From Siphonodentalium dalli (lineage: Eukaryota > Mollusca > Scaphopoda > Gadilida > Siphonodentaliidae): DNA of 64,000 nt. A program made the position numbers and the translations under genes. The notes beneath the pieces are model-generated. The model had not been told where the DNA came from. It saw nothing but the letters and a program-made list of their open reading frames with translations, and did no database searches. Where the stretch lies: assembly GCA_032622095.1 (NCBI GenBank), contig CP136067.1, positions 94,044,707 through 94,108,706 on the forward strand, read 5' to 3'. The first letter of the stretch is position 1. Each line of letters begins with the position of its first letter. Below, piece after piece: positions 423 to 41,900 of the stretch.

Positions 423-3400
423 CTGTATACAGAATTACAAATGGTACGGTTAGTTAACCCTTTACCCAACAAACCGCCAAAACCGGCCAAATAAAGCTTC
501 AACAGCCTAAAATATCTTCGGTCTGTCTCAATAGAACCATACACATATGGATATCATTGGAACCGGCTCCTTGACCACATTGTGATCGTTACAGTTATGC
601 CCTGTGCCAATGCATTCTCTTATATATGCGAGTCGACCATAGGTCGCCTCGCATATATAAGAGAATGCATTGGCCTAAAAAAAATCTTTTTTTAACACTT
701 TTTACCATTTTTTCTTACATTCTTTAACAATTTTATAATTTTTAATGTGTTAAGCCAATGCATTCTCTTATATATGCGAGGCGACCTATGGTCGACTCGC
801 ATATATAAGAGAATGCATTGGCACAGGGCCCTTCTGTTGGGTAAAGGGTTAAACCGATAACTGGTTACTCGACTGTTAACGCTTTCTATACTAAATGGAT
901 TCCTTCATCAGTTATGAAAGTAATTGCTGAATATAGGGTTGAAACTTTTATTGGTCAAAGGTTTGGCCAAATATAATTTTATTTTCCCTTTTTCGAAAAA
1001 AATATTTTCAATGGCCACTGACAGCGTGAACCATTTAAAAGTCCTAGCAAATGAAGAAGAGAGTATAACATTCAAATGCTTAGCTTTCTGTAATAAATGG
1101 AATCTCCTAACCAGTTATAAATATATACATTGGAATGGTCTATAATTCATTTGGAGGTTGTTAAGGATATATGAGAAGACGACAGCTAGACGAAATGATA
1201 ATACAAGTGCAGAAGAATTCATATTCATTAGCGGGAAATGTTCAGATAATAAGTTGAACAAATGACCTATGGTTGAACTTATTATATGAACATTTCCTAT
1301 GGGAACTAATGTACTCGTCAATGAGTATTTGGTATAGAAAAGGTTAAAATGGAACTAAATTGGTTCAAGATAAGAAACTCACCGAGGACCCAGCAGATAT
1401 CTTCTTGAGTAGTTCCTTGTGTTTGGTGTCTTGATTTGATGTCCCATCACCATCCATGATCCCGGATGTTCCTGGTACGGCAGTTCCCTGGTTATCAGGC
1501 GGCTTCTGTCGTTTCTGAGAATCTGATTTCCGCTCTTTGACTTTCACCGTCAGTTTGTTTCCATCGAGCATGTGCTGCTTCTCGTTCAGACACTTTTCTG
1601 AGGATGAATCTGAGTCGAATTCGATAATTGCAAAGTAACCCTGCAAGCAAAAGGAACACACCATATGTGACCCGCCATATCAAATCCAGTCGGAAGTCGG
1701 GATTTTTTTACCCTGTGCCAATGCATTCTCTTATATATGCGAGTCGACCATAGGTCGCCTCGCATATATAAGAGAATGCATTGGCCTAACAATTTTTTAC
1801 AATTTTAATAATTTTTTCTTGTATTCTTTAACAATTTTATAATTTCACCCATACAGAGCCCCAGACAAACATGAGCAGACGACACTCTTCTATATGCTTC
1901 TATATATGTGTGGGGCTCCCTGCAGGGTAATGGATGTTTTTTTATTTTATGTCCTAAAAATTGTAAGAAACATTTATTTAAAAAACATGATAAAAAATTG
2001 TTAGGCCAATGCATTCTCTTAGATATGCGAGGCGACCTATGGTCGACTCGCATATATAAGAGAATGCATTGGCACAGGGTAAAAAATTCCCGACTTCCAA
2101 CTGGATTTGATATCGCGGGTCACATATATTCATTGAGTCAAATTTGATGATTGCATAGTAGCCCTGCAAGCAAAGGAAGTGCACCATGTAGTTGTCAGGT
2201 CAAATTTGATGATTGCATCATAATTATGCAAGCAAAAGGAACACACCACATAGTCATCTGAGTCAGATTCAATGATCACTTTAACACTTTCTTTACTGGA
2301 TGGATTCTTTCATTCAGTTAAAAGAGTATACATTGGAATGGTCTATTATTCATCTGGAGGGATTTTCAGGAAATATAAGCAGACAATAGTTATCGAAACA
2401 GATAATACAAGTGCAGAAAAATTCTTATTCATTGGTGAGAAATGTATATATAGGTTTACCATAGATTATTTTTCACATTTATTCTTCATCATAAGCAGAA
2501 CTAATAAAAAATTTCATTAGATTTTGTGTGTTGTTGTAACTGGAGATTTGGAAAAATGAATACATCTTTAATCCTTCCATGACTGTAGCTTCCTGAAATT
2601 TTGCAAAAACCCTGTGCCAGTGCATTCTCTTTTTCATTTTTAGTATAGTTTCTCTATATACCTAAATTGGCAAATGATACAATGCATAATCCCAGTGCCC
2701 AGTGGGTGCACATCACTATCTTTACTATCTGGGAACTTAACCCTTTACCCAACAGAAGGGCCCTGTGCCAATGCATTCTCTTATATATGCGAGTCGACCA
2801 TAGGTCGCCTCGCATATATAAGAGAATGCATTGGCTTAACACATTAAAAATTATAAAATTGTTAAAGAATGTAAGAAAAAATGGTAAAAAGTGTTAAAAA
2901 AAGATTTTTTTTAGGCCAATGCATTCTCTTATATATGCGAGGCGACCTATGGTCGACTCGCATATATAAGAGAATGCATTGGCACAGGGCATAACTGTAA
3001 CTAACACAATGTGGTCAAGGAGCCGGTTCCAATGATATCCATATTTGTATGGTTCTATTGAGACAGACCGAAGATATTTTAGGCTGTTGAAGCTTTATTT
3101 GGCCGGTTTTGGCCGGTTTGTTGGGTAAAGGGTTAAACCTGAGCCCAGAAATTTACCCTCTGGGGACCTCATTCTTCAAATGACCAGCACCATATTGGAG
3201 GCCTGATCACTATGCAACACTCCCTCATTGCTGCTGGATATATTCAGTCTTAATCAGGTCACCTCTCTGTTAGTTAACAGGTACATGGTGGTGAATCACA
3301 TGGTTTCGAGGTTGTTGAGTGGCACGCATTAAAAATGGCCGTGGCGAGCGCAATCGCACAAAAACATAATATATGAGGAACTGACACAACATACCCGGTA

Positions 3401-6072
3401 GCATTTTGACTGTTGCGATCATATGCTAGTTTATTTTTAAATTAAGTTGATAGCTTATCTGTTCTGAAATACTCTGTAGTTTTCTATAACATTCTGACCA
3501 AAGTTGCCAGTCAGAGGTTCGTGGAATACATACATCAAGGAAAATCCTTTAACTGACAACTTTGGTGAGAATGTTAGAGCAAACAACTGTGAGTTTGGGC
3601 ACAAATGAGATATCAGATTGTTTGAAAAATAGTATAGCACATGCTCGTAGCTGCCAAAATACTATGTAATGTGTCATATCCTAGTTTATTACCTTTTTCC
3701 TGGTTTCTGGTCATGTTTGTGATCGCCACAGCCATTTTGAATGTATGATACTCATCAAGTCAAAACAATGTGATTCCCCACCATGAGGTAATAAATTTGT
3801 ATACCACTCACCTTCAATAAGTAAGAATTGAGGAACATTTTCGAGCAATGACTAGGTTTACTCTCCCATATCTTATCTTAACTTCTCCCTATCTAGAACG
3901 ACTCTGTTTACTCCCCTGTATTTTATTTTAACTTTTCCCTATCGAGAACGACTCTATTTACTCTCCCATATCTTATCTTACCTTTTCCCTATTGAGTACG
4001 ACTGTTTACTCTCCCGTATCTTATCTTAACTTCTCCCTATCTAGAACGACTCTGTTTACTCCCCTGTATTTTATTTTAACTTTTCCCTATCGAGAACGAC
4101 TCTATTTACTCTCCCATATCTTATCTTACCTTTTCCCTATTGAGTACGACTGTTTACTCTCCCATATCTTATCTTACCTTTTCCCTATTGAGTACGACTG
4201 TTTACTCTCCCATATCTTATCTTACCTTTTCCCTATTGAGAACGACTCTGTTTACTCTCCCATATCATATCTTACCTTTTCCCTATCGAGAACGACTCTA
4301 TTTACTCTGCCGTATCTGATCTTACCTTTTCCCTATCGAGAACGACTCTATTTACTCTCCCATATCTTATCTTACCTTTTCCCTATCGAGAACGACTCTG
4401 TTTACTCTCCCATATCTTATCTTACCATTTCCCTATCGAGAACAACTGTTTACTCTGCCGTATCTTATCTTACCTTTTCCCTATCGAGAACGACTCTGTT
4501 TACTCTCCCATATCTTATCTTACCTTTTCCCTATCGAGTACGACTGTTTACTCTCCCATATCTTATCTTACCTTTTCCCTATCAAGTACGACTGTTTACT
4601 CTCCCATATCTTATCTTACCTTTTCCCTATCGAGTACGACTGTTTACTCTCCTATATCTTATCTTACCTTTTCCCTATCGAGAACAACTCTGTTTACTCT
4701 GCCGTATCTTTTGAAGTACTCCCTCAGATGACCATCGGTGGTATTCTTCGAGAATCCTTTGACATAGACACTCGAGTTCTGGTATTTCTTCTTCCTATCA
4801 TAATCAGCTTTTCTACTCAGATGTTTCTTCCCTTTAATGTGGTCATTCATAACCAAGTCTGTAAAATTTATGATATATTTCAATAATATATAAATACAGT
4901 AAAACCAAGCCTGAATTTAATGTGTCAGACATTTACAGAATGAGGTCCCCAGAGGGTGAATTTAGTGACGCTATCCCGCATATAGGGCTAGCATCACCAA
5001 ACTCACCCACTGGGAACATCATTCTGCTTAGGCCTCTTCTTCTGGGGAAGTATCTAGTTCTGTTTCTATATCCCCTAATTTTCAGAAGATAAAATGCATA
5101 ATCGATGGGTGAACATCACATCAACTTCAACTGAAGAATTTCAATCTGATCCTAGGTCTCTCAGCAGTTGAGGCCTAAGCAGAATGAGGTCCCCAGAATG
5201 TTAATTTGGTGATGCGAGCCCACTGTGAACCTAGGAAGTTTAGTGCCCATGGGATAAAGATCAATTCAGCAGTATTTCTATTTGTACTGGAGCAAAATGG
5301 TGTCAAATGGGCGATGGAGCATATTAAATTGGATAAGACCCTCAGGCGAACTGCTGGAAGTTTAAAATCAGAAAAATATCATGAACATTGTACATGTAAG
5401 AACATATCTCTGATTAATCAAGATTGTTCGTATTGGAAAAAAATTCTCAATATTTCCAATGACTTTGCATTCGTGTCATGTGAGAAATACAATGTATTAT
5501 AATTTACTGTCACATTGTTGGGAGGAATTGTATAAATCAGTGCAGCATGACAAAAACAGCGAGTTAGGCTAAAATTCATACAAAGGGTAATTTGAAAAAA
5601 TGTGAATCCCATGATTAAATCAAATCAAATTTAATCGGCAGCCAGATTCGCAAATCAAATCAAATATCAAAGCTTCATAGGGCCCTACTTGAAACCAATT
5701 TGTCCAATAAGCACTGATATCATATGAAGTAAAAAATATACTGAAGCATATGCAGAGAAGAACTACCGTACATCAAAAGTACAGTAATTTATAGTGTATC
5801 TTATAAACACTCAGATTCGGTAAGCACCTGTCCACTACCTCTTTTCTCTACAATATGAAATGCAGAAATAATAAACATGTATATAAGTAGGCCTAAACCT
5901 GTCGAGAGTAATGAATAATCACTGCATTTCGCATTTAATTCTCAGAATCATGGATGACGTTAAACATAATCTTAATTAACCATGGCATCAGGCACTAAAC
6001 AACCATTTATCTATGATATGAACACTCACCAGAAGATACAGATACATTACACACTTCACAAAAGAGAACCAT
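308..6072 (-). CDS. TUT1: TUT1-like terminal uridylyltransferase, 5' part (gene span, runs off left edge)
   Basis: Gene assembled on the minus strand from four coding exons: 6072-6030, 4858-4668, 1640-1383 and 422-308. All junctions are GT-AG and the phases match (1, 0, 0, then 1 into the next exon outside the window). The protein begins with a matrin/U1-type C2H2 finger (C-x2-C-x12-H-x5-H, residues about 5-27), followed by a basic linker and an RRM (RNP2-like VYVKGF, RNP1-like GYFAIIEF). After a low-complexity stretch comes a helical segment (VISQMKLLYDTLKL) that aligns with the entry to the nucleotidyltransferase core of TUT1. Finger-RRM-polymerase is the known architecture of the nuclear enzyme that adds uridines to U6 snRNA and polyadenylates some mRNAs. 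The catalytic domain itself is not in the window, so catalytic residues cannot be checked. Upstream of the ATG no promoter is evident, and a possible 3' splice site suggests a 5' UTR intron. Confidence 0.75.
454..852. mobile_element. piggyBac-type MITE, copy 1 (TTAA-flanked, double hairpin)
   Basis: TTAA target duplications lie at 454-457 and 849-852. Terminal inverted repeats start CCCTTTACCCAACA. Inside are two hairpins of about 75 bp (near 599-675 and 754-830), each almost a perfect palindrome of CCAATGCATTCTCTTATATA and its complement. They are arranged head to head around an AT-rich spacer. Other full copies are at 2737, 6846 and 35682; this one is inverted relative to those. There is no coding capacity. 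TTAA plus CCC termini is the signature of piggyBac elements. It lies in the intron between TUT1-like exons 3 and 4. Confidence 0.75.
868..1230. repeat. Intronic block duplicated at 2272-2470
   Basis: The stretch around 868-1230 (for example ATACATTGGAATGGTCTAT and GATAATACAAGTGCAGAA) recurs with divergence at 2272-2470. The two blocks bracket TUT1-like exon 3, its duplicated acceptors and an inverted-repeat element. This implies a tandem segmental duplication around exon 3, followed by decay of one copy. Confidence 0.5.
1383..1640 (-). CDS. TUT1: TUT1-like coding exon 3 (second half of RRM plus linker)
   Basis: The acceptor TTGCTTGCAG precedes 1640 and the donor GTGAGT follows 1383; 86 codons, phase 0. 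The exon begins GYFAIIEF, the RNP1-containing strand that continues the RRM of exon 2, and continues to KLTVKVKERK, the end of the RRM fold. A Ser/Gly/Asp-rich linker follows, then ELLKKISAGSS. The corresponding position in vertebrate TUT1 also has a low-complexity linker before the nucleotidyltransferase core. Partial copies of the acceptor and first codons lie upstream at 2135-2280. Confidence 0.8.
1663..2126. mobile_element. Inverted-repeat element with two hairpins, inserted beside exon 3
   Basis: Long inverted arms (1663-1712 and 2076-2126, sharing GTGACCCGC and CCGACTTCC) enclose two copies of the 75-bp hairpin also found in the piggyBac-type MITEs (near 1711-1786 and 2003-2080). No TTAA ends are seen. 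The central part is unrelated and AT-rich. It starts about 22 bp upstream of the exon 3 acceptor. Confidence 0.55.
2135..2280 (-). pseudogene. Three tandem partial copies of the exon 3 splice acceptor and first codons
   Basis: Copy a (2190-2135) keeps a TTTGCTTGCAG acceptor and an open start reading GYYAIIKFDS, against GYFAIIEFDS in the true exon. Copy b (about 2254-2198) has lost the acceptor, reading GCAT instead of GCAG. Copy c (about 2280-2255) keeps only codons resembling VIIESDSDD. None has a donor, so they are exon fragments, not exons. They lie immediately upstream of the true exon in the transcript. Confidence 0.65.
2570..2640. repeat. Truncated end of TTAA-type MITE family B
   Basis: CCTTCCATGACT, TTCCTGAAATTTTGC and CCCTGTGCCAGTGCATTCTC match the terminal part of the family whose full copies are at 35207 and 61894. 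The copy stops after the first half of the hairpin. Confidence 0.5.
2737..3136. mobile_element. piggyBac-type MITE, copy 2
   Basis: TTAA at 2737-2740 and 3133-3136, the same CCCTTTACCCAACA terminal repeats and two 75-bp hairpins as copy 1, in the opposite orientation. It lies in the large intron between TUT1-like exons 2 and 3. Confidence 0.75.
3848..4667 (-). repeat. Minisatellite built from the exon 2 splice donor (about 16 units of 48-50 bp)
   Basis: Each unit, read on the minus strand, consists of the last 41 bases of TUT1-like exon 2 and the first 9 of the intron: ...GATAGGGAAAAG then GTAAGATAA. Most units keep AAAAG/GTAAGA, a good 5' splice site; a few have GTTAAG-type changes. Unit length alternates between 50 and 48 bp. 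Units near 3880-4030 and 4031-4180 repeat as a three-unit block, showing higher-order growth. The true exon end is the last unit (4668-4710). On the plus strand the array makes a spurious repetitive open frame. Confidence 0.85.
4668..4858 (-). CDS. TUT1: TUT1-like coding exon 2 (second half of finger, first half of RRM)
   Basis: The acceptor TTTTACAG precedes 4858 and the donor GTAAGA follows 4668. The exon encodes H-x5-H of the finger (HIKGKKH), a Lys/Arg-rich linker, then the first beta strand of the RRM (SSVYVKGFSKNTTDGHLREY) and helix 1 through DREK. It ends in phase 0. The last 41 exonic bases plus 9 intronic bases form the unit of the adjacent minisatellite at 3848-4667. Reading past the donor would give V-R-stop, so intron retention or use of a repeat donor terminates translation. 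Confidence 0.8.
4906..5225. mobile_element. hAT-type MITE family C, truncated copy
   Basis: It starts CAAGCCTGAATTTAATGTG and carries the AGAATGAGGTCCCCAGAGGG hairpin and middle section of the family defined by full copies at 24172, 39085 and 56397. The right hairpin is degraded and the right end is missing. Confidence 0.6.
5226..6029. other. TUT1-like intron 1, no recognised content
   Basis: AT-rich intron between the two zinc-finger exons. Open frames here have no recognisable domain and no codon pattern suggesting a gene. Confidence 0.4.
6030..6072 (-). CDS. TUT1: TUT1-like coding exon 1 (first half of matrin-type zinc finger)
   Basis: ATG at 6072 reads M-V-L-F-C-E-V-C and supplies the C-x2-C half of the finger. 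The exon ends in phase 1 at a GTGAGT donor (6029-6024). The missing codon bases are completed exactly by the next exon to give Asp. A CATTTCAG acceptor-like site ends at 6103, which would make 6102-6073 the last piece of 5' UTR. The exon is too short to be found from ORF length. It is supported by the spacing of the finger ligands across the intron (12 residues from the second Cys to the first His). Confidence 0.72.
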
Positions 6073-6145: not shown

Positions 6146-7369
6146 CGGCTAGACTTTGTGCAGGATGTATGTATTCGCGGATGTATCTTCGCGGATGTAA
6201 ATTTATTGCAGTATGTAACTTTTATGACCGCATTAATTGCTTTTGGTATTTAGGTGAGAACAATGGCTGGGCTGGTATCGGGGTGTACTTTATCCAATTA
6301 GTAGATTTTTCGCCCGCCTTTAAAAGTTTTCTGATGTTGAATGAGAAACCTTCAGTGATAAGCCGCAGTTGTAATAATAAGGATTAGTTGTTTTAACGGA
6401 ATTCTGAGGTGGTGCATTCATGAAACCTTGGAAGGAATTATGAATAATTAGTCACCATAATAGGAAGCCATGGATTCACTTAGCCATTTAGATGTTTTAA
6501 TAATTCGAGGTCTAATTTATTTTAACAGATTTTTGAGGTGGTGAATGAAACCTTGTCGGAAATTATTGATAATGAGTCTCAAAATTGTCTGAAAATCATT
6601 CAGTGTTCAGCCGTTGTAGATTGGCGTCTGTCAGTAAATTAGTTTTTGTTAATGATATGTTTTTTTAATGATATGTTCATCGGAAACCAGTATTTTTTAA
6701 AGTTTACCACAGAATGTCATGAATGAAGTTCACACACCACTAAGCAATTGATTTCATTTGATTCAGAGATCAGCTCACTGAAAAGAGAGGAGGCTCAGCC
6801 AGTCAGTGATCACGCAGTTAGGACGATGGATGGAACTAGAATTGTTTAACCCTTTACCCAACAGAAGGGCCCTGTGCCAATGAATTCTCTTATATATGCG
6901 AGTCGACCATAGGTCGCCTCGCATATATAAGAGAATGCATTGGCTTAACACATTAAAAATTATAAAATTGTTAAAGAATGTAAGAAAAAATGGTAAAAAG
7001 TGTTAAAAAAAGATTTTTTTTAGGCCAATGCATTCTCTTATATATGCGAGGCGACCTATGGTCGACTCGCATATATAAGAGAATGCATTGGCACTGGGCA
7101 TAACTGTAACTATCACAATGTGGTCAAGGAGCCGGTTCCAATGATATCCATATTTGTATGGTTCTATTGAGACAGACCGAAGATATTTTAGGCTGTTGAA
7201 GCTTTATTTGGCCGGTTTTGTCGGGTAAAGGGTTAACAGTCTTCAAATAGAGGGAAAAAATCGAAAGCAATAATTAACGCGGTCATAAAAGTTACATACT
7301 GCAACAAAGGTACATCTGCGAAGCATGTACATCCACGAATACATACATCCTGCAAAAAGTCTAACCCCT
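6146..7369. mobile_element. Element with about 100-bp terminal inverted repeats
   Basis: The left arm 6146-6243 (TAGACTTTGTGCAGGATGTA...) is repeated in reverse complement at 7255-7369 (...CATCCTGCAAAAAGTCTA). The interior has no transposase. It contains a piggyBac-type MITE (6846-7236) and a pair of about 128-bp direct repeats (starting near 6392 and 6521). No clear target duplication was found. It begins about 50 bp upstream of the TUT1-like first coding exon, so it lies in the promoter or 5' UTR intron of that gene. Confidence 0.5.
6846..7236. mobile_element. piggyBac-type MITE, copy 3 (nested)
   Basis: TTAA at 6846-6849 and 7233-7236, with terminal repeats and double hairpin as in copies 2 and 4. 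It is nested in the inverted-repeat element 6146-7369, so it is the younger insertion. Confidence 0.75.
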
Positions 7370-7687
7370 CTAGTGCTGAAATAGTTATCTGGTTGAAGAC
7401 AGGCTACCATTGGCAACCGGTTGATGTATGATTAACTGGTTAACCGATATGTATTACACACACGAGATGCCAATGATATCGGTGATAGACTGCCAACAGT
7501 AGCTATTAAACATGTGTACTTTATCAATTTTGCCACAAACATTATCACTCTGACAAAGGCGTATACAATCGAAATTAAACGTGTTCAAAGTCAAAATCTG
7601 ATGCCAGATCAAAAGTCTTCCATGAGTTGCAAGATATATATGTAACAGAACGAGAGAGAGAAGTGCGGGAGTCGCACCGAAAGTTGG

Positions 7688-7760
7688 CAGCACCCGGAAT
7701 CCCAAGCCGGTCACCCATCCAAGGACTAACCGGGCTCGACGTTGCTTAACTTCGGTGATC
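7688..7760 (-). promoter_or_regulatory. 5S rRNA-like internal promoter in the 3' LTR
   Basis: Same 5S-derived segment as in the other LTR, with very few differences (for example GTCGAGCCC against GTCAAGCCC). The control boxes are intact in both LTRs. Confidence 0.75.
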
Positions 7761-7999
7761 ACACAAAGCGTCTAACAACCGTGACCAAGAGATCTAGACC
7801 TCTCGAGCAGAGAAGTCATCGGCCTTCTATATTTACAACGCGACTACTACACTACTCCCCCGTTCTTTTTGAGATTCACCGAATCTCACCCGAGTCCTCC
7901 CCCTGAGCGGTTGCATCATGACAGACTCCGAGGAGCGGACGAGCCCCCAGTGTAACAGAACGAGAGAGAGAGAAGAGCGGGAGTCACACCGAAAGTTGG

Positions 8000-8072
8000 C
8001 AGCACCCGGAATCCCAAGCCGGTCACCCATCCAAGGACTAACCGGGCTTGACGTTGCTTAACTTCGGTGATC
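8000..8072 (-). promoter_or_regulatory. 5S rRNA-like internal promoter in the 5' LTR
   Basis: From 8072 downward it reads GATCACCGAAGTTAAGCAAC, then GCCCGGTTAGT, GGATGGGTGACCG and CCGGGTGCTG. These are the A box, intermediate element and C box of 5S genes, in correct order and spacing. The 5S part before GATCACC is degraded, so no functional ribosomal 5S RNA is expected. The retained part is what TFIIIA and Pol III recognise. Confidence 0.75.
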
Positions 8073-8718
8073 ACACAAAGCGTCTAATGACCGTGACCAA
8101 GAGATCTAGACCTCTCGAGCAGAGAAGTCATCGGCCTTCTATATTTACAACGCGACCGCTACATATACATAGTCTGGCTTTGGCGGCTTAACATAAAATA
8201 TGCATGAAGTCGCCGTTGATGTTCCGATGTCCGGGATAACACGTGCACTGAGTTGTCGTCAAAGATCAATGCAGTCGTTGTCGATGCAGTACGGCCTGGT
8301 CATTTGACATCTACTGTCCGACTCACTACTTTTAGACGGTATCATGGATACTCAAGAAATGTGTAAATCGAATGTCTGGTGTATTTCCTTCTGCTCGAAG
8401 AATAACAAAATTCACAGAATGCAAACTCTGTTGAAGCTGATTTACATGCACAGGGTCTATACTTCTAACATTACCGAGTTTGAGTAATCTCAGTGATTGA
8501 AGTTCCAATGAACTTGCATCGATGTGGTGTTTCCAGGCAGTCAGACCCGTTTGCAGACTAATGACTAATTCTCAGCAATTTATTGTGTTCGAAAAGAAAG
8601 CACTATTTGTAGCTGATTATATAATTTTCATTTGTTAACTACATAAAGTTCATGAAACTTCATAATTGTGTTTAACTGTCATCAGTCTTCCTTATAGATG
8701 GCGCAATCTATTATGGAT

Positions 8719-11696: not shown

Positions 11697-11741
<45 letters not shown>

Positions 11742-26900: not shown

Positions 26901-29900
26901 GATATATGTACATGACATCTGCGAGCATAAAAGGCTTGTACGCACTACAGCTATTATAACATTTATTAGCTCAACTTTACTTTGTAAAGTTTGAGCTATT
27001 GCCATGGCTTTGTCGTCCGTCGTCCGTGTGTACGTGTGTGCGTGTGTACGTGTGTACGTAAGGCGTCAACAATGCAGGCTACAGGTCGTACCTTTCGTCG
27101 GATCATTATGAAATTTGTCATAGCTGTTGACATAAACATTTAGACCAGAATAATTAATTTTGGGGTCATTCGGAAAAAAAACATGGCCGCCAGTGTACTG
27201 TTTGTCTGATCTTCATGAAATTTGTCATGGATGTTAATATTGACATGTAGATGGGAACGAGTAATTTTGGGGTCATTCGGCCAAAAAACATGGCCGCCAG
27301 CAGCCATCTTGTATTTTACTCTTTGTATGACTAAATCCTTTAGCACGGGCTACAGGTCGTACCTTTAGTCTGATCATCATAAAATTTGTCATGGCTGTTG
27401 AAATTGGAATGTAGATGGGAACGAGTCATTTTGGGGTCATTCGGACAAAACACATGGCCGCCAGCAGCCATCTTGGATTTCAAAATTTAATCCATTAGCA
27501 CGGGCCACAGGTCGTACTGTTCGTCTGATCACCATGAAATTTGTCATGGATGATAATATTGACATGTAGATGGGAACGAGTAATTTTGGGGTCATTCGGC
27601 CAATAAACATGGCCGCCAGCAGCCATCTTCGATTTTACTCTTTGTATGACTAAATTCTTTAGCACGGGCTGCAGGTCGTACCTTTAGTCTGATCATCATA
27701 AAATTTGTCATGGATATTAACAATGACATGTAGATGGGAACGAGTAATTTTGGGGTCATTCGGCTAAAAAACATGGTCGCCAGCAGCCATCTTGGATTTT
27801 ACTCTTTGTATGACTAAATCCTTTAGCACGGGCTACAGGTTGTACCTTTAGTCTGATCATCATGAAATGTGTCATGAATGTTAATAATGACATGTAGATG
27901 GGAACGAGTCATTTTGAGGTCATTCGGCCAAAAAACATGGCCGCCAGCAGCCATCTTGGATTTTACTCTTTGTATGACTAAATCCTTTAGCATGGGCTAC
28001 AGGTCGTACCTTTAGTCTGATCATCCTAAAATTTGTCATGGTTGTTGAAATTGGAATGTAGATGGGAACGAGTTATTTTGGGGTCATTCGGACAAAAAAC
28101 ATGGCCGCCAGTGGCCATCTTGGATTTAAAAATTTAATCCATTAGCACGGGCCACAGGTCGTACTGTTTGTCTGATGATCATGAAATTTGTCATGGATGA
28201 TAATATTGACATGTAGATGGGAACGAGTAATTTTGGGGTCATTCGGCCAAAAAACATGGCCGCCAGCAGCCATCTTGGATTTTACTCTTTGTATGACTAA
28301 ATTCTTTAGCACGGGCTGCAGGTCGTACCTTTAGTCTGATCATCATAAAATGTGTCATGGATGTTAACAATGACATGTAGATGGGAACGAGTAATTTTGG
28401 GGTCATTCGGCCAAAAAAACCTGGTCGCCAGCAGCCATCTTGGATTTTACTCTTTGTATGACTAAATCCTTTAGCACGGGCTACAGGTTGTACCTTTAGT
28501 CTGATCATCATGAAATTTGTCATGAATGTTAATAATGACATGTTGATGGGAACGAGTCATTTTGAGGTCATTCGGCCGAAAAACATGGCCGCCAGCAGCC
28601 ATCTTGGATTTTACTCATTGTATGACTAAATCCTTTAGCATGGGCTACAGGTCGTACCTTTAGTCTGATCATCATAAAATTTGTCATGGTTGTTGAAATT
28701 GGAATGTAGATGGGAACGAGTCATTTTGGGGTCATTCAGACAAAAAACATGGCCGCCAGCGGCCATATTGGGTTTAAAAATTTAATCCATTAGCACGGGC
28801 CACAGGTCGTACTGTTCTTCTGATCATCATGAAATTTGTCATGGATGATAATATTGACATGTAGATGGGAACAAGTAATTTTGGGGTCATTCGGCCAAAA
28901 AACATGGCCGCCAGCAGCCATCTTGGATTTTACTCTTTGTATGACTAAATTCTTTAACACGGGCTACATGTCATACCTTTAGTCTGATCATCATAAAATT
29001 TGTCATGAATGTTAATAATGACATGTTGATGGGAACAAGTCATTTTGGGATCATTCGGCCAAAAAACATGGCCGCCAGCAGCCATCTTGGATTTTACTCT
29101 TTGTATGACTAAATTCTTTAGCATGGGCTACAGGTCGTACCTTTAGTCTGATCGTCATAAAATTTGTCATGGATGTTAACGATGACATGTAGATGGGAAC
29201 GACTCATTTTTGGGTCATTCGGCCGAAAACAAGGCCGCCAACAGCCATCTTGGATTTTACTTTTCTCTTCATGTCTATAAACATGTATTAGATATTCAAC
29301 TTTCCACATTCCTAATGGCTCCATTGACTGTAATACATTAAATTATTCCCTTTCCAAGTTGAGCTACAGTGTCATTGACACTTTCATATTGTAACTTTTG
29401 TTTGACTCTGTTGGAGATGAAGTTCGTTTCTCAAAATATCTTGCATTTCTTCATGTACACCCGTGTGTGAAGTCAATCGGTGACAAGCACACTGGGCAAG
29501 TTCGAAAACAACGATGTTCGATTGTATGTAAGAACCGGTACGGCCCGGTATACCATACCAATGATACCATATCAATTTTAAAGGAACATTTTTACACAAA
29601 ACATATAGAATAATGCACCGGTTTCTGATTGTTGCACGCGCTTCCACTCCGTAATCCGTAGCGTTTCCGCGATCGATCAGATGTTGTCACCACCGTTTAG
29701 ATACATACATCAACTGGATGGTAATTTGATTGTCATAAAACATCATATACCTGGGACAAATTAATTACCTATTAACCTTCAGTGATATTAAGCCAAATAA
29801 TCACGGCAAATAGTGTTTAATCACGTCTTGCTTTGCGTTCGAAAATGCAAAGTTAGTTACTGGTACTCAAAACAAACGGCAAATTATATACGTATATGAG

Positions 29901-32900
29901 CACAAAACGGTAAGTAAGAAGGGGTCCGACTAGTCGACTAGTAGTCGATTCCCTCTGGCGACTAGTCGATTCCTCAAAACCACTAATCGTTTCAACACTA
30001 GTTAGGCTAGAAGAAATAATGTTGAACATTTTTATAATTAAATTGGCATTCAAGTGTGTTGTCATATATTCCAACCTGGCTAATTAAACCTGGCTAATTA
30101 GGTAGCAATTAGTCCAGGCCTGAAAATATGCCAGACATTTGCAGAATGAGGTCCCCAGAGGGTGAATTTAGTGACTATACATCGCTAGCATCACCAAATT
30201 CATCCTCTGGGGGACCTCATGATACATGGACTCATCTGCTATGGGAGACCTAGACTCAGATTTAAGTTCCCAGATGGTGCAGCTGGTGATGGTGAATTGG
30301 AGTCCGATGAATCAACTTTCATACCTGACGTGACACATCACTTTAACTAATTGGTTGATCTTTTCAGTGAGAAATGAATCTGAATTGGAGTCCGATGAAT
30401 CAACGTTCATACCTGACATGACGCACCAAGTCTTCGGTGAAAAGTAAGCATTTATCTTGTATTATCAGGCCTGGATATAGTGTGTGTGTCATTTGCAGAA
30501 TGAGGTCCCCAGAGGGTGAATTTAGTAAAGCTTACCAGGTCAAGTTAAATATAGTTAGGCCAATGTATTCTCTTATATATGTGAGGCTCCCTATGAGAGA
30601 CTCACATATATAAGAAAATGCCTTGACACAGGGTTTTCGGAAAATTCCAGGAAGCTTAAGTCATGGAAGGGTTAACAGATAGGAGCAGGTAGCTCAGCTG
30701 GTTAGTGAGCCGACCTCTGAGCTACGCCTTTGATATGGTTGAGAGTTCAAATCCGACATGGTATCGGTCGGACTTTGTGTCGCCATCTGCATTCCCAGTA
30801 CCATGTACAGTAATGCTATAATTAATCGACCTCTTAACCACAGCAGAATTATGGGTATAAACTTTTCAGGATTTAGTCGGAAATATGGCTTGTTGCCATT
30901 CATTGGAAACTCTCCCCGGGAGCTTTCCGATGAATGGCAACAAGCCATATTTCCGACTAAATCCTGAAAAGTTACCCATAATTCTGCTGTGGTTAAGAGG
31001 TCGATTAATTAGAGCATTACTGTAACCATGGGCAACACGAATCAACCATCATTGACATGATCAGTGCTCTGAGAATGATTCCATAAACAAATAGAATATC
31101 AGACAAATTTGAAAAATACCTACATTGAGAATTTCGTACCTCTGCTCCTCTTGTAATGTAACAGCCAGGGGTGACACAACTCTAGGCACACCGTCAGATT
31201 GGGAGCCGACGTTAATGGCTGTCCCTTGTGCAACAATGTGCGCATGTTAAAGATCCCTACCGTGGTGAAGAAGTCACATATTCAGAAAAATTTCCCGGAC
31301 AAAATGGGTGGATCAATCTACTCAATCCCAGGTTATATTAGTAAGTATAATGACTGCAAGCCATGCCAACAAAGAAGATGCATATTCACTGTATTCAGTT
31401 CTGGATTGCTTTCGTTGGTATAGTCAAAGGTATAGGTTGCATAATCCGATTAAGCGCCCCTCAATTACTATTTATTTGGATTCGGGGTAAAAGATATTTT
31501 ATTCGAATCGAGGAACCCATCTATCAAAGCTCAGAGTTATTATATATCGATTATTGAAATCTATTATTTTTCACCATCCAGACTTATTAGTGGCCCAGTA
31601 AAAAGTCGACGAGCCGACGGTCCCTGACCAAATTGCGGATGAAAATGAATAACTAAAATCAAGAGGCTTTGTGTTGATAATAATGCCAAATTTCATCGAA
31701 CAAGATGTTGATAAATAACAAGTTTCAGACAATTTTATTCTATAGTTTACTGTGGTTAGCATTATTTTTGGGCAATTAATCAATTCTGATAAATGAAGCG
31801 GCATTTCTAAAAATATTGTTGTTGTTGGAATCTGATTATATGGGGACCATTGAATCGGATTGAGTACCTTTAAACATTTGTCAATCATGTTTTGCCTCTC
31901 ATTTATATTTTCATTCTTCTTTTCTAATGCACACTAATGTTTTATCTTCAGAGAGACGATATTTGGTTACAAGGATCTGAAGATTGATTTGTTCTACACA
32001 GCATCTCGACTGATAACGTACCTCAACATGTCCTACTCTGAAAAAGTTAACTCACAGAAACATGGTGTGTCAGTAAGTGTATCTGCTTACCAATTTTAGC
32101 CAACATTGTTCTTTGTTTTCATAATGCTATCCTCAAAGTAATTGAAAAACGGGATGATACCCTGTAATGACGGTAGTATACGGTATCCACAGCGGTAACG
32201 AGAAGGTCTCTGTGGTGAAGTTACAGTACTGTGCGGTTATTAGCGGGGCATCACACCAAAAGTTGAAAAAATAATACAACAGGATCTCGTTAAGTTAAAC
32301 AGATATAAGGAGAATCCATGAACTTAATGTTCATGTCTGCATGTGTAAAACCAATAAATGCGGCCTGACACCAGGCAATGGATGGGTTTATAAAACTATA
32401 AGGCATTAATAGAGGTATTTCATGTATGTGTGAATTTATTTTGATCCCAGGTACGGACAGAAACATGTTTGCAAATAGTGTGTCTGTCATTTGCAGAATG
32501 AAGTTCTCAGAAGGTGAATTTAGTGATGCTATCCAGCATAGAGGGTTAGCATCTCCAAATTTACCCTCCGGGGACCTCATTTTGCTTGGGCCTCATCTTC
32601 CGGGAAGTATCTAGTCTCAATTAACATTGTTTTTAGTTACTTTTTCCCCTTCTGTGAAGTTTCAATATCCCCTAATTTGCAGAAGATTAAATTCATAATC
32701 GGGGTGACTAATGGGTGAACTTCACCAACATCAACTGAGAAACTTCAATCTGATTCTAGGTTTCCCATAGCAGTTGAGGCCTAGGCAGGATGTGGTTCCC
32801 AGAGGGTGAATTTGGTGACACTAGCCCCCTGTGCGGATAGCATCACTAAAATCACCCTCTGGGGACCTCATTCTGCAAATATCAGACACACTATATCCAG

Positions 32901-35900
32901 ACTTGATATTAACCAATCACCGCTATTGGTAACAAAATTATGTAACATATTCTCACACTTTTGACAGGCGGATGAGGTGTTACCTGTTCTGGCTGGAGAT
33001 ATCCCGTTTGGATACAAAAGCAATTTGTCAGATTTCATCTCGGAGTTGTCAAGCGAGCACAAGTTTAAACCATTTGGCACATTACTACACTCATACAAGA
33101 GGATTACAAGTGGTAGGTGGCTTTATTAGTCGAGTTTTTTTCCAAAACTCGACTTATAGTTTGATGAGGGGCGGCGGACAGGCGGGCGGGCGGCGTGTTT
33201 TGCTTATAACTCAACCGTTTATTGACAGATTAAACAAAAAATTGGTGTGTGAGTACATATCCATGCACGTAAGCTGCAGACAAAAAAATCGGGTTCGTCC
33301 GCACATTTATTACAGAGTTATGGCCCTTTGAATTTTCAGCTCGTTAGCGCGATAACTTCAACAAACGTTATCCGATTTGATTGAAATTTGGTATATAGGT
33401 GTCTCCCAAGAATATCTCGGATGAGTTCGAAAACCGGCCTGGTCCGATAAAATTTGATAGAGTTATGGCCCTTAATTAGTCATTTTTCACGAATTTTCAG
33501 CTCGTTAGCGCGATAACTTCAACAAACGTTATCCGATTTGATTGAAATTTGGTATATAGGTGTCTCCCAAGAATATCTCGGATGAGTTCGAAAACCGGCC
33601 TGGTCCGATAAAATTTGATAGAGTTATGGCCCTTAATTAGTCATTTTTCACGAATTTTCAGCTCGTTAGCGCGATAACTTCAACAAACGTTATCCGATTT
33701 GATTGAAATTTGGTATATAGGTGTCTCCCAAGAATATCTCGGATGAGTTCGAAAACCGGCCTGGTCCGATAAAATTTGATAGAGTTATGGCCCTTAATTA
33801 GTCATTTTTCACGAATTTTCAGCTCGTTAGCGCGATAACTTCAACAAACGTTATCCGATTTGATTGAAATTTGGTTTATAGGTGTCTCCTAAGAATATCT
33901 CGGTCGAGTTCGAAAATCGGCCAGGTCCGATAAAATTTGATAGAGTTATGGCCCTTAATTAGTCATTTTTTCACAAATTTTCAGCTCGTTAGCGCGATAA
34001 TTTAACAAACATCATCCTATTTGATTGAAATTTTGATATATAGGTGTCTCCCAAGAATACCTCGGACGAGTTAGAAAACTGGCCCGGTCCGATAAAATTT
34101 GATGGAGTTATGGCCCTTAAGTAGTCATTTTTCGATTTAACCTATTAATTAGTCTACTGATACTGATGCACACCAATTGGCAGTAGCCACCGGCGGTAAG
34201 CCACCGAAAACGAGACACAGCATCTCTGATGCCACCTCTTGTTTTAATATGATATGATACTCGAAGTATATAGAATGACCCTGCCATTTGGGATTAAAGA
34301 ATCTTCCAAATTGTCAGACAAATACTCTTAAGCTTACTGGATGCATGTTAACAACTTGAAACGCAGATATAGCCCTGTGTTAATCTGTAGACCGTTTGGT
34401 GCTAATAGTGAGTCACAACAGAGATAATAATATTTCATGATATGAATCGTCCAATATCCTGTACAAAACCTCAGACCTCTGGCACGAAAAATAGAACCGC
34501 AACACCTTATAAATGTTCACGAAATGTATTTGTCCATGGTTCAAAATGTCCAGTACCCCACAAGTTATTTATTCTGTTCTGAAAAAAGTGTACCCTCTTG
34601 GAATTTCAATAACATGGTATTCTAAATTATCTGTGATGGCACAAGTAAGTGAATTAGCTGCGTTAGGCCATAAGTTTGGTTCTCGGGCAATTATTTTTCA
34701 AATAAATGAGGGAGGTTGGGGTTTTTTCTTTTTTTCCAGCTGTTGTAATATGTGTAGAAATTGTGCATATTTACCTGTTTCTCCCATGTGAGTTCATACT
34801 TAGCATAGTTGTTGGAAGTTCTGACCAAAAAATATTGTTCTCACTTAATATACCCCTACTTGTGTGCAAACTTATATATATTTTTTAGTCTGAACTTCCA
34901 ACAAATGTGATGAATGAACCATATATCTGTTTCAATTACCTTAATATGATGTAAATATGAAGTATAAAATGATATTTTCTAAGAGTTTTGTTGTTCTGCT
35001 ACTATTTCAACTAACACAAGCATGATTTACCACATTGATAAACAGTATGAAGCATGTGGGGAATTCCCCATTTTTCAATTGTCATAAAAGTTTTCTTAAA
35101 CTGGGAAGTGGAACATTAATTTCTAAACAGAAACAAACAACAGTAATTTTTGTTAAATTTAGCAGACTATCAACACTGTATTGTCATCTTGGTATAAGAA
35201 TTTATATTAACCCTTTCTTGATTGGAGCTGTGCTGGTGCAGCATTAAATATCCTGTGCCAGTGCATTATCTTATATATGCGAGTCTCCCATAGGGAGCCT
35301 CACATTTATAAGAGAATGCACTGGCTTACACGGTCAAGGTAATTGTTAGGCCAATGTATTCTCTTATATATGCAAGGCTCCCTATGGGAGACTCGCATAT
35401 ATAAGAGAATGCATTGTCACAGGGTTTTCGCCATATTTCAGGAAGCTCTGGACAGTCATAGAAAGGTTAATAAAAGTAGCAAAGCTAGAAACTTTTCCAG
35501 TCAAGAAATGATCTGGAATAATCATTCCGACTTTCTTACTTACCATAAAATTGTAAAATTTTAAATTGAAAGTCGAAACAAACATATGATTGCAAACCAT
35601 CAGGAATGTTTGTTGTCACTACAGCTCACTTTTGGTCCTAACTAAGGAAGGATGGTGGTTTTATCTCTTTATTGATAAAGTTTAACCCTTTACCCAACAG
35701 AATGGCCCTGTGCCAATGCATTCTCTTATATATGCGAGTCGACCATAGGTCGCCTCGCATATATAAGAGAATGCATTGGCTTAGGCTTAACACATTAAAA
35801 ATTAAAAAATTGTTAAAGAATGTAAGAAAAAATGGTAAAAAAGATTTTTTTTTAGGCCAATGCATTCTCTTATATATGCGAGGCGACCTATGGTCGACTC

Positions 35901-38900
35901 GCATATGTAAGAGAATGCATTGGCACAGGGCATAACTGTAACTATCACAATGTGGTCAAGGAGCCGGTTCCAATGATATCCATATTTGTATGGTTCTATT
36001 GAGACAGACCGAAGATATTTTAGGCTGTTGAAGCTTTATTTGGCCTGTTTTGGCCGGTTTGTTGGGTAAAGGGTTAAGGAGAGTTTGACAGCAGAGTACA
36101 TTTATGTTCTCTAATTTCACTATACAATATCATAATTTGCCACTTGGGGAGGTGAATAAAAATGATTTACGCGGCTATTATTTTTTATTATGCGAAAGCT
36201 ATAACCATTTTTTTCTTTGGCCTTTAATACCTATACACAACCCACATTCGTTCTCAGAATTTCTCTAATAAATCCTATCATTTGCCACATCACATTGAGT
36301 AGATGTCATAGATTAAGTTGTTTGGCACAGCTTCTGTTGTTCATCTGACTATGGTACCATCTATATGTGTGACATGTTCAATCCACGTTTCCCAACACTA
36401 AATTTAGACATTGATAGTGGCAATAATGAACTACCCAATCCATTATGATCGATTGATTATAGTTGACTTGATAATTCTAGTCAACTTTGGAATTTTCAGG
36501 GGGACTGCCACTTCACCTGATGGCAAATTAGGGTATAGTTGGAATCATATCGCCCTTGTCCTTGGTCACATGGAAACTAAGGAATGTTTTCATTCACAAT
36601 TTCCATCTCATGTTTGTTTACAGATAATCAGGAGCGTCATTTTGAGATCTATAAAACAGACATAGATTACCCTGGTTTTAGAGATTTCCACGAGCGGCTA
36701 CAAACCTTTCTCCTGTTCTTCGTTGATGCTGCATCATATATTGATGTTGATGATGAAAGGTGGAATTTCTATCTTTTGTAAGTAACCCATTTCTGGTCTT
36801 AAAAATATTTCAGAAATGGATGTTGATTTTCTTGCGTTCCATAGAGTATGGATGCAAGTTGGTCTGACATTTTGTGTGGAACACTTTCGCATTACACACA
36901 TGACAATGTCAGACCAACTTGCATCCATCCATACTCGATGAACACAACAAAATCAACATCCATTACTTATATTTACACTCAACCGACTCAACTGGCAGAT
37001 TAAAAGAGCATTAAGCACCCATTTTCAATGTTATTCTTGTGACTTGATACACAAAAATGGATGCAAGTTGGGGTCAGCACGCGATGTCATGTGACTTAAT
37101 TTCGACCAACCAATGTCCTGCATTCATGTTCCTCAATGCGAATGCATGTGTGAATGTAAATATAAAACAATATTCCAGTATAATTTAATCATAAGTGGTC
37201 AATGCATGGAATATCATAAAACAATTGGCTGTCACATACTTTGCTATTTATGTTATTCTCGATAACATAACCACGTCATGCATATAGACAGTCTAATTTA
37301 TGAGAAAATACCACGGGGAGCCGCTGTCGGGGTATCCTACCATAATTGGGAAAGGAGCCCGGGCCCCTGCTATTGGGGGAAAAATAAATGCAATGGGGTT
37401 CAAATTGGGAATTCAAAAACCTACTGAAAAAAAAAAGCTGTCAGTTGAAAACCAATTTGTTGAGTTATGTGTACTATACTAAGTTAAACACATTGTCTAA
37501 TCACTTGCCACTGTCAAAATTAAAAGTAGGATTTATATTTATATTTTGAGGATTCTCATATTAAAATCAATCAACTTTGTAAATTGGGAAATTTCTGAGT
37601 CAAAATTGGGAATAAAGGCATTTGGCATTTAGAAAGGTGTCTGCATTTGGGTCCTAGTGCTACCTAGATCATGCCATGAATCTCTACTCTGGCTAACGCC
37701 CATAGAGATCATATTCCACCAGTACAAAAACTTTGAACTGTTTGAAGTTTTGACAGGGAATCTTATAAAGTCGAAATAATAATGAAGGGAATATATTTCT
37801 TAGTTACTATCTGTTCCTTAATAATGTACTGCATTGTAGGTGAAGGTCCCAACTCAAAATTGCACGCCTTTCTGTGACTTTTGTGAGGTGATATCGCAAT
37901 AAACATTGAATTAATTACCCAGGAGAAATGCCATAATTTTAAGCGACGCGAAGAAAAATCGCTCACAAATTCACTTATATCATGAAATTTCGAGTTGGGT
38001 CCTTTACCTACAGTGAAGTTCATTATTAAGGAACAGACAATAATTAAGAAATATATTCCTCGCATTATCTTTTCGACTTTATAAGGTTCTCTGTCAAAAC
38101 GTCAAAAAGTTCCAAGGTTTTAACAACTGGTAGAATATGATCTCTATGGGCATTAGCCAGAGTATTAGCCTGAGTAGAGATTCATGGCATGATCCAAGTG
38201 CTACCAAAGATAATCCCTGAATACCTGACATTTCAAAACATTGTCAACATATCTTATGTTTTCTATGCTATTGGGGATGCGTTTAATGTACATCCACAAA
38301 TTGATCATGATGGTTTTTCCTGTAATATTTACAGGTTTGAGAAGTATAAATCAGATGGAAACACGAATTATGCTATCGTTGGTTATATGACAATCTACAA
38401 CTACTATGCATATCCAGCCAGCTATCGACCGAGGGTCAGGTAACTACAGTAAATTGTAACTCAAGTTGAATATCTGTTGTTGAAGCACACTTTCTGATTA
38501 GTTGAGTTGCCAACTTCAGAATTTGATTCACCAACATCGCCCGCTGCTGAGTGAATAAATTTGCAACCACAAGTTCTTACTATAGATACAGGCACGATCA
38601 ATTAACAGGAAGTTTTTTGGATGCTACAGTAATGCCCTAAATAATCGACTCCTTAACCACAGCAGAATTATGGGTAATTTTTCAGGATTTATTCGGAAAT
38701 ATGGCTTGTTGCCATTCATCGGAAAGCTGAGAGCTTTCCAATGAATGGCAACAAACCATATTTCCGACTAAATCCTGAAAAATTACCCATAATTCAGCTG
38801 TGGTTAAGGAGTCGATTATTTAGGGCATTAATGTATTCTGAGTATCAATGGAATGTACCCAAGGATTTGATACCCCAGAAAAGGGGATCTCACTCCATGG

Positions 38901-41900
38901 GCTTGTAATGAATCTAATGCTGATGAAAATTGCTTTTCGTCCAGTTTATTTTTAATATTTTGGAGAACTCAAATACCATGGATATAAACATACCCTGTTT
39001 CGTTGGATATATTCGGGAATTCAAAATGGGTGTGTTTATCTTGTAAATGGATCAGAGTCTGCCACTGCTATTTTGGATCTGGCACTAGCCTGAGTTTAGT
39101 TTGCCTGTCATTTGCAGAATGAGGTCCCCAGAGGGTGATGCTACCATGCATAGGGGGCTAGCATCACTAAGTTCACCCTCTGGGGACCTCATTCTGCTTA
39201 GGCATCATCTTCTCTGGAAAGTTTCTTTATTATCAAACTTCTTCACATAGATTCTATTTCTTTTTTAGTTTTGTTTCTTTATATCCACAAATTAGACGAC
39301 ACATTGCATAATCAAGGTTCCCAATGGGTGTACATCACAATATTCACCATTTGGGAACTTCAATCTTGAGTCCATGTCTCCCATAGCAGATGAGGCCATG
39401 CAGAGTGAGGTATCCAGAGGGTGAATTTGGTGATGCTAGTCCACTATGGAGGGTAGGGTCACTAAATTCACCTTCTGGGGACCTCATTCTGCAAATGATG
39501 GGCACACTAAACTCAGGCTTGATCTGGCAGTAAGGTATATTGGTCATTTTCTTGCTGTGAAACTTACATCTTCAAGATTTAGTCAACGACATGGTGTCAC
39601 AGTTCTATCATTTGATACCATTTTACTCTTTTTCCAGCCAAGTCCTTGTGTTGCCACCTTTCCAAAAACAAGGTCATGGGACGCAGCTGTTACAAACTTT
39701 TTACAATGATTGCAATACAAGATCGGATGTCCGAGATATCACAAGTAAGTCCGGCACAGTATATATCGCAACTAATCTTACAAGGCTTTATGTCTTTATA
39801 CAAACATGCATGGACATGAGATCAAAGAGATTCGTTATCTGGTTCAGATTTCCGATTCATTAATGTATAAAACAGTATTTGGTAACTATGTTCAAATGCG
39901 TTTAAAATGGCTGTTGCAATCGGAGTAAAAAATATGTCAGTGTTACTTTATTGGGTTATTTTGGACAAAATAAATCACACAGAATCTATTATCAAACTTT
40001 GCACGGAAAATATTAGCCACCGGCAAATGAGAGCTAGCCAATGCGGACAGCCCGAAGAATAAATATTTGCAGAATCAGGGATAGCATCAAAAAAGTTCAC
40101 CATCTGGGGACCTCATTCTCCTTATATTATAAGCCTCATCTTCTCTAGAAAGTATTTTTATTATCAAATTAAGGCCACACAAAAAAATACTGTGTTTCTC
40201 AAGTATTTAAAAAAAAAAACCCAGCAGGCAGGCAGATTTTTATTTTTATTTTTTTGGGTTGAATTTTACTGGCAGGCAGGTTTTTTATGCCGGATTTTTA
40301 TGTATAAAATGGCGGGCATGTATGCTTTTTAGCTCACCTGAGACGAAGTCTCCGGTGGAGCTATAGTCATCACTCCTCGTCCGTCGTCCGTCCGTCCATC
40401 GAGCCGTCCGTCCGTGTTTACTAATGACTACTTATGTGGCTAAGATTGTGTAAAATGGATATTTATGTGCATAACTTCCGTTGCATGGCTAGCCACGTAA
40501 CAGCTTTCAGATGGACGTTCAAAAATGATCTATTTGGCCTAATCAGCTTATTTAATTTTGTAGTCACTCAAAATTTGGAAACAAAAAGTCCATCGATTTA
40601 GACATCCATGACCTGTCAATAGGAGATATCGGACACTGACAGACATTTATGTGGCTAGCCACCCAATCACGGACCTGTCAGTTTCTCCTATTCCACTGTC
40701 CCAGTTGCTGTGTGCAAGTTTTTGAGTTTTAATCAGCTGCTTCTGCTATAATTCCAACATGTAATGAATCCATAATCTGGAGTTTTATCACTATCTACTA
40801 CTTGATAGCCACATCAAATTTGATGGCTACTTGAGAAGCCACATAAAAACTAAAGCCACATTACCATTTCTAGCCACATAGGTCGGAGCCACATATCTAC
40901 CCATTTGTTCGTCTGTCCGTCCATCCGTCCGTCTGTCAACAATTCTTTGAACATCTTCTCCTCTGAAACCAATATGCCGAATTGGTTCATATTTGGTGTG
41001 GATGTTCCCTAGGTGACTCTCATTCAGATTTGTTCAAATGAGGACAGTGGGTCAAATAGTTGCGAAGCCAGGGCCATAACTCTGTAATTCTTACAACGAC
41101 TTCTTCTCAAATTTCATTTGGCCATATGGGTTCATAGTTGGTACAAAGGGTCCTTGGGGGACTGTTATTCAGATTTGTTCAAATGAGGTCACTGGCTCGA
41201 ATGTGGGCGGAGCCAGTGACATAACTAAAAAAAAAAAAAAAAATTGTCAAATTCAGATTTTTGGAATTTTCACCATACTCAAATTAACAAACAAAAAATT
41301 AATTTTTTAATCATTTTATAAAATTTGAAAAAAGTTACACCATTATAAAATCTGAAGAGTTATGAAACTTTAATCTTTAATCTTCTGAAATTACAGAAAT
41401 ATTCCATTACCCATCCCCCCTCCCACATGGCCCAGACCCACCCCACCCTGCAGTGGCCTGCACCCAACCAACATCCCTTCTAACGTATATCATTTCCAGC
41501 TTCCAACATTAATACCTGTTCTATTAAAGTTGCAGATATCTCTTTGTGGATAAACAGAGAGAAACACATGTCATTAATCAAGATTAGAATAATATGTCAC
41601 TGACAGCTTCTATAAACATACTGCTAGCAATTTTAAACAAACTGCCTGAATTTAGTGTGTCTGACATTTGCAGAATGAGGTTCCCAGAGGGTGAATTTAG
41701 TGATGCTATCCCACACAGTGGGCTAGCATCACCAAATCCACCCTCTGGAGACCTCATTTTGCTTAGGCCTCATCTTCTGGGAAGTATCTATAGTATCAAA
41801 TTAACATTGTTTTTAGTTACATTTCCCTTCTAGGAAGTTTCTATATCCCCTAATTTGCAGAAGATAAAATTCATAATTGAGGTGCCCAATGGGTGAACAT

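Follow-up and report, generated by a model that had tools for sequence, protein, structure and literature searches.

The 523-bp element found on the minus strand at positions 7641-8163 of the window, the whole 64-kb stretch of DNA analysed here, is a genuine TRIM with a 5S promoter in its LTRs. We consider it highly probable that it belongs, as a non-autonomous LTR retrotransposon, to the Pol III-promoter type known as 'TRIMp3'. This reading is based on the LTR pair, the PBS, the polypurine tract (PPT) and the TG...CA ends, together with an ungapped, sense-oriented 5S block that scores far above shuffled sequences. It is also based on the three promoter boxes being kept while 5S 1-49 has been lost, on a TATA near the position it has in Donax, and on the precedents of Cassandra, Ajax and Helenus. 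The lack of AATAAA and ATTAAA, of a tRNA box B and of any ORF of at least 90 aa proper to the element points in the same direction.

Anatomy of the element and its surroundings

The element, delimited with a repeat finder, blastn and the sequence itself, consists of a 5' LTR of 213 bp (7951-8163), a non-coding internal region of 99 bp (7852-7950) and a 3' LTR of 211 bp (7641-7851), all on the minus strand. Both LTRs run from TG to CA. Their alignment of 213 columns shows 95.8% identity, in agreement with the roughly 96% given for this 523-bp element in a preliminary description, and the differences amount to 7 substitutions (6 transitions and 1 transversion) and an indel of 2 bp within a CT run. 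Within 7401-8400, the repeat finder detected two direct families, both belonging to the LTR pair. No further copy of the element was found in the 64-kb window by blastn, where the other matches were only 11-21 nt long with E >1, and no autonomous partner element was recognised within the same 64 kb.

One base inside the 5' LTR, a pattern scan identified the 14-nt PBS TGGGGGCTCGTCCG (7949-7936, minus strand), with 0 mismatches over 14 nt to the complement of the 3' end of animal tRNA-Pro. It is the only match at <=3 mismatches in the window, so that there is no second tRNA-Pro PBS within the 64 kb, and shuffled sequences give an average of 0.71 matches. The chance of a random exact 14-nt PBS match beside an LTR end is ~7e-7, assuming ~45 isoacceptors and 4 offsets. 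At the opposite end of the internal region, the PPT GGGGGAGTAG (7861-7852, minus strand) adjoins the 3' LTR; it reads GGGGGAG and then TAG, and these final three bases break the pure purine run. Both primer sites had been proposed in the preliminary description and are confirmed here. Regarding the possible 4-bp duplication also proposed there, TATA does stand on both sides of the element (7637-7640 and 8164-8167) and the match extends over 4 bp, not 5 bp, with a probability of ~0.005 by chance from the local base composition. As evidence for a duplication this is weak, because the DNA is TA-rich and on the left side consists of repeated TA, and we keep it as a possibility.

The window contains 43 ORFs of >=90 aa, defined from stop to stop, and only one of them touches the element. 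It encodes 105 aa (7454-7771, minus strand) and extends from the 3' LTR into the flank, and the element has no ORF of >=90 aa of its own. A motif scan of the 523 bp revealed neither AATAAA nor ATTAAA, and the folding of the putative transcript is unremarkable (z -1.27, with 15 of 100 shuffles at least as stable). TRIMs have been described as elements of <1000 bp with two direct terminal repeats of ~100-250 bp (PMC6934838). The element agrees with this description, having 523 bp, LTRs of 213 and 211 bp, a PBS by the 5' LTR, a PPT by the 3' LTR and no coding capacity.

Elsewhere, the window contains a gene for histone acetyltransferase 1 (HAT1; 30367-58650, plus strand), recognised by nine tblastn hits with the human protein as query. 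Among the best 120 of 575 matches to the joined HAT1 protein, the highest-ranking ones with an organism name were from the bivalves Solemya, Potamilus, Mercenaria, Ruditapes and Mactra (62-63%), and a limpet came next with 60%. A HAT1 tree of 37 rows placed the window row and 32 spiralian rows apart from 4 non-spiralian ones (support 95/88), with Potamilus nearest by path and a highest identity of 66%; the place of the window row within the spiralian rows was not resolved. A hAT transposase lies at 53709-55554 (minus strand) in two overlapping ORFs. A match to the hAT dimerisation domain was obtained for the downstream ORF. The upstream ORF has no Pfam family and matches hAT proteins by search, the named bivalve ones with 45-52% identity. 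Among 119 matches to this transposase, 15 were organism-named, corresponding to 9 bivalves, 3 coelacanth and 1 each from pipefish, bryozoan and shrimp. Judged from these proteins, the host would be a spiralian, best read as a mollusc and probably as a bivalve with no close relative among the proteins listed, and less probably as a spiralian outside the molluscs; the hAT matches weigh less here than HAT1, since transposons of this type may pass from one species to another. A MULE transposase domain (45026-45718, minus strand; 47.6 bits) is situated between two HAT1 exons.

The window is also rich in other repeats. Among the matches listed, a ~400-bp repeat has four copies (453-854, 2737-3136, 6844-7237 and 35680-36077) that are 92-99% identical; with its palindromic arms and many shorter related copies in the window, it resembles a family of fold-back elements or MITEs. 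Members of a second dispersed family (~300-460 bp) were located, also among the matches listed, at 4904-5227, 32464-32907, 39087-39523, 41644-42025, 43839-44121, 50873-51428 and 56396-56827, some of them with inverted repeats and several within the HAT1 gene. Two arrays of 21/64-bp units with GCTAATTAGC (48716-49080 and 53211-53597), ~4 kb apart, are each other's best match in opposite orientation, and units of 164 bp and 161 bp are repeated in tandem at 27204-29261 and 33330-34133, respectively. An ORF at 1365-1679 (minus strand) looks by eye like an RRM-domain exon, and a run of 44 G is found at 11697-11740.

The 5S-derived block and its predicted transcription

Both LTRs contain, at the same place, a 5S-like block of 77 nt that corresponds without gaps to 5S +37 to +113 and runs in the sense direction of the element. 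According to Rfam and alignment, with positions computed by hand, it covers 8000-8076 in the 5' LTR and 7688-7764 in the 3' LTR (minus strand). Taking the limits of the promoter boxes as quoted in the available part of PMC6204057, box A, the intermediate element and box C are located at 8049-8063, 8041-8046 and 8016-8033 in the 5' LTR, and at 7737-7751, 7729-7734 and 7704-7721 in the 3' LTR (minus strand, also hand-computed, for the 5' LTR from LTR positions). The presence of 5S sequence in both LTRs, with the boxes in order and oriented with the element, had been noticed beforehand and is borne out, while the length of the block has to be corrected from about 73 nt to 77 nt.

In a search of 801 bases, Rfam 5S_rRNA matched the minus strand in the two LTRs with scores of 29.6 and 25.9 bits, at E-values of 6e-4 and 6e-3, respectively. 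Neither reaches the gathering score of 38, which is why a default Rfam scan of the whole window lists no 5S. Local alignments to the human 5S sequence gave scores of 79 and 84, and none of 2000 dinucleotide-shuffled versions of the element exceeded 32. Relative to human 5S, 11/15 positions of box A, 5/6 of the intermediate element and 15/18 of box C are kept, while 5S 1-49 is poorly kept (17/49). The block is presumably nearer to mollusc than to vertebrate 5S, and we found no mollusc-type 5S string printed in paper text. A motif scan for the promoter boxes gave no exact match in the element, where by eye 10/12 and 12/13 positions fit; box C was matched at one other site of the window. With a 21-base 5S probe and <=3 mismatches, no site was detected in the window beyond the element. 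The 5S block makes up 77 of the 213 bp and contains only 1 of the 7 substitutions between the LTRs, which are too few to show selection.

The 5' LTR has a single TATA (LTR 21-24; 8140-8143, minus strand), a possible TFIIIB site. It begins 31 bases upstream of LTR position 52, the start implied by the 5S register. This is similar to the situation in 5S genes of the bivalve Donax, where a TATA-like motif is reported at about -28 (PMC6204057), but such placement is suggestive only, because 880 of 20000 shuffles put TATA in that region. Regarding termination, the sense strand of the element contains TTT and no TTTT, and the first T run of the flank is found 27 bases beyond the 3' LTR. The missing TTTT is unremarkable in itself, given that 428 of 2000 shuffles also lack it.

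Judging from these sequence features, Pol III would begin near LTR position 52, perhaps aided by the TATA ~31 bases upstream, and would continue across the internal region as far as the 3' LTR and into it. Termination would probably occur at the T run of the flank or at a weak TTT; we propose a site outside the element because the sense strand has no TTTT. Such read-through need not block copying, since it is the PBS and the PPT that define where the LTRs of the copied DNA end. A tRNA-Pro bound at the PBS would prime minus-strand DNA, strand transfer would be possible through the repeated LTR sequence and the PPT would prime the plus strand. We infer a putative family that would be mobile through a helper, most likely a Gypsy-type element, which would supply reverse transcriptase and integrase in trans and whose integrase would insert the element with a 4-bp duplication.

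Alternative explanations

Several observations count against the TRIMp3 reading, namely the single copy in the window, the short duplication in TA-rich DNA, the Rfam scores below the gathering score, the lack of an internal TTTT and of an autonomous partner recognised in the window, and an RNA that is not unusually stable. One could argue that the element is a real TRIM in which the 5S block is a passenger, inserted in an ancestral LTR as a SINE3-like sequence or a 5S pseudogene, and that Pol II transcribes it from the TATA at LTR 21-24. The existence of this TATA and the lack of an internal Pol III terminator would suit such an explanation, and the use of Pol III is here deduced from sequence. 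Yet the spacing of the TATA also suits a 5S gene, the element has neither AATAAA nor ATTAAA, and the three 5S boxes remain ungapped, with order and spacing intact, though the 5' part of 5S has been lost, so we regard a passenger 5S as quite unlikely. We give hardly any credence to the idea that the two direct 5S-like blocks, ~312 bp apart, come from a tandem pair of degraded 5S rDNA repeats or from two adjacent SINE3 copies: 5S accounts for only 77 of the ~213 bp of each repeat, the repeats run TG...CA, a PBS and a PPT occupy the junctions, and the 21-base 5S probe (<=3 mismatches) has no other site in the window. An identity as tandem 5S rDNA was rejected on this structure.

A further alternative concerns the origin of the element and is compatible with the TRIMp3 mechanism. 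The preliminary description implied that there was no animal precedent, which does not hold, as Ajax and Helenus had already been published (PMC10886601), and their being in print reduces the surprise. In the available text of Kojima 2024, Ajax comprises TRIMs with a 5S promoter from two nemerteans, Ajax-1_NGe and Ajax-1_LiLo (PMC10886601). The element could be a direct relative of Ajax through descent or horizontal transfer, with no independent capture of 5S, and the common plan would speak for this kinship: in both cases, an animal TRIM with PBS and PPT carries in its LTRs a partial 5S with the promoter boxes only (PMC10886601). However, comparing at the level of its description, Ajax has a tRNA-Leu primer, 5-bp duplications, a size of 421-434 bp and nemertean hosts, whereas here we have a tRNA-Pro primer, a probable 4-bp duplication, 523 bp and a host that is probably a mollusc (PMC10886601). 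Neither the tRNA-Leu PBS nor the 5-bp duplication was found in the element, which has a tRNA-Pro PBS and flanks that match over 4 bp. We consider direct kinship unlikely, and the TRIM described here is plausibly a separate animal example that captured 5S independently in molluscs.

Comparison with known systems

Kojima 2024 groups Helenus, Ajax and Cassandra as TRIMp3 (PMC10886601), and a 2026 meeting report cites Helenus and Ajax again, with no new hosts in the available text (PMC12859917). As in this group, Pol III promoter sequence from a small-RNA gene is present in both LTRs of the element. Among the matches listed, in the titles and abstract beginnings of open-licence PMC papers, we found no mollusc LTR element reported to carry 5S sequence. 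A search for relatives in viral contigs (3 patterns) and prokaryote contigs (1 pattern), neither of which is expected to contain mollusc DNA, gave no match; as a positive control, each of the 3 scan patterns recovered the element in the window.

The preliminary description had called the element Cassandra-like, after the plant TRIMs that also have a 5S promoter in their LTRs (PMC10853983, PMC7215508). Cassandra, as described in the parts available, uses the methionine tRNA PBS TGGTATCAGAGC (PMC10853983, PMC7215508), in contrast to the tRNA-Pro PBS found here, and membership was rejected since TGGTATCAGAGC is absent from the element. Cassandra also has terminators in its LTR 5S and a plant host, compared to no TTTT and an animal host in our case (PMC7215508, PMC10886601). 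The biv-TRIM of bivalves has similar terminal repeats (202-218 bp), but its internal region is of 77-80 bp instead of 99 bp, and the available text does not mention 5S content (PMC6934838). The biv-TRIM internal segment TGATCCCAAAGGAC and usual PPT, GGGGAGA, each present in most but not all published biv-TRIMs (PMC6934838), are absent from the element; on these two quoted motifs, and by description, an identity as biv-TRIM is disfavoured. SINE3 is likewise a non-coding retroelement whose Pol III promoter derives from 5S, but has no LTRs, PBS or PPT and is mobilised by non-LTR retrotransposons (PMC10886601).

The remaining comparison is with Helenus, in which the LTRs of TRIMs carry a tRNA promoter, reported from six animal phyla and with 51 families in pteriomorph bivalves (PMC10886601). 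Animal Helenus have 4-bp duplications and an inferred Gypsy helper, tRNA-Pro is among the primers of the bivalve families, and the oyster Gypsy-13_CGi is also tRNA-Pro-primed (PMC10886601). The element resembles bivalve Helenus in its primer and possible duplication, and would do so in its helper and, if its probable host is indeed a bivalve, in its host, but differs in having a 5S-derived instead of a tRNA-derived LTR promoter (PMC10886601). The tRNA boxes GGTTC and TRGCY do not occur in the element, and ARAGORN detected no tRNA gene in the window. An identity as Helenus was rejected, as the element is without tRNA box A/B sequence.

We tentatively propose, with somewhat less than even confidence, that 5S was captured here independently for the third time by LTR retroelements, following Cassandra and Ajax, and, to our knowledge, for the first time in a mollusc. 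The body would be a bivalve one similar to Helenus, dependent on Gypsy, primed by tRNA-Pro and duplicating 4 bp, with 5S replacing the tRNA promoter. If so, a single kind of mini-retrotransposon would accept different Pol III promoters as exchangeable modules, and read-through past the 3' LTR to T runs of the host would substitute for an LTR terminator. If the family is real and its host a mollusc, 5S-promoter TRIMs would exist in two or more animal phyla as well as in plants, and the repeated gain of Pol III promoters by LTR elements and the swap of modules on a constant Gypsy-dependent body would become testable. Caution is also due with 5S-like sites in genomes of this kind, which may be something other than 5S rRNA genes. 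Taken together with the known systems, the element looks like a promoter of the Ajax kind on a body resembling that of bivalve Helenus.
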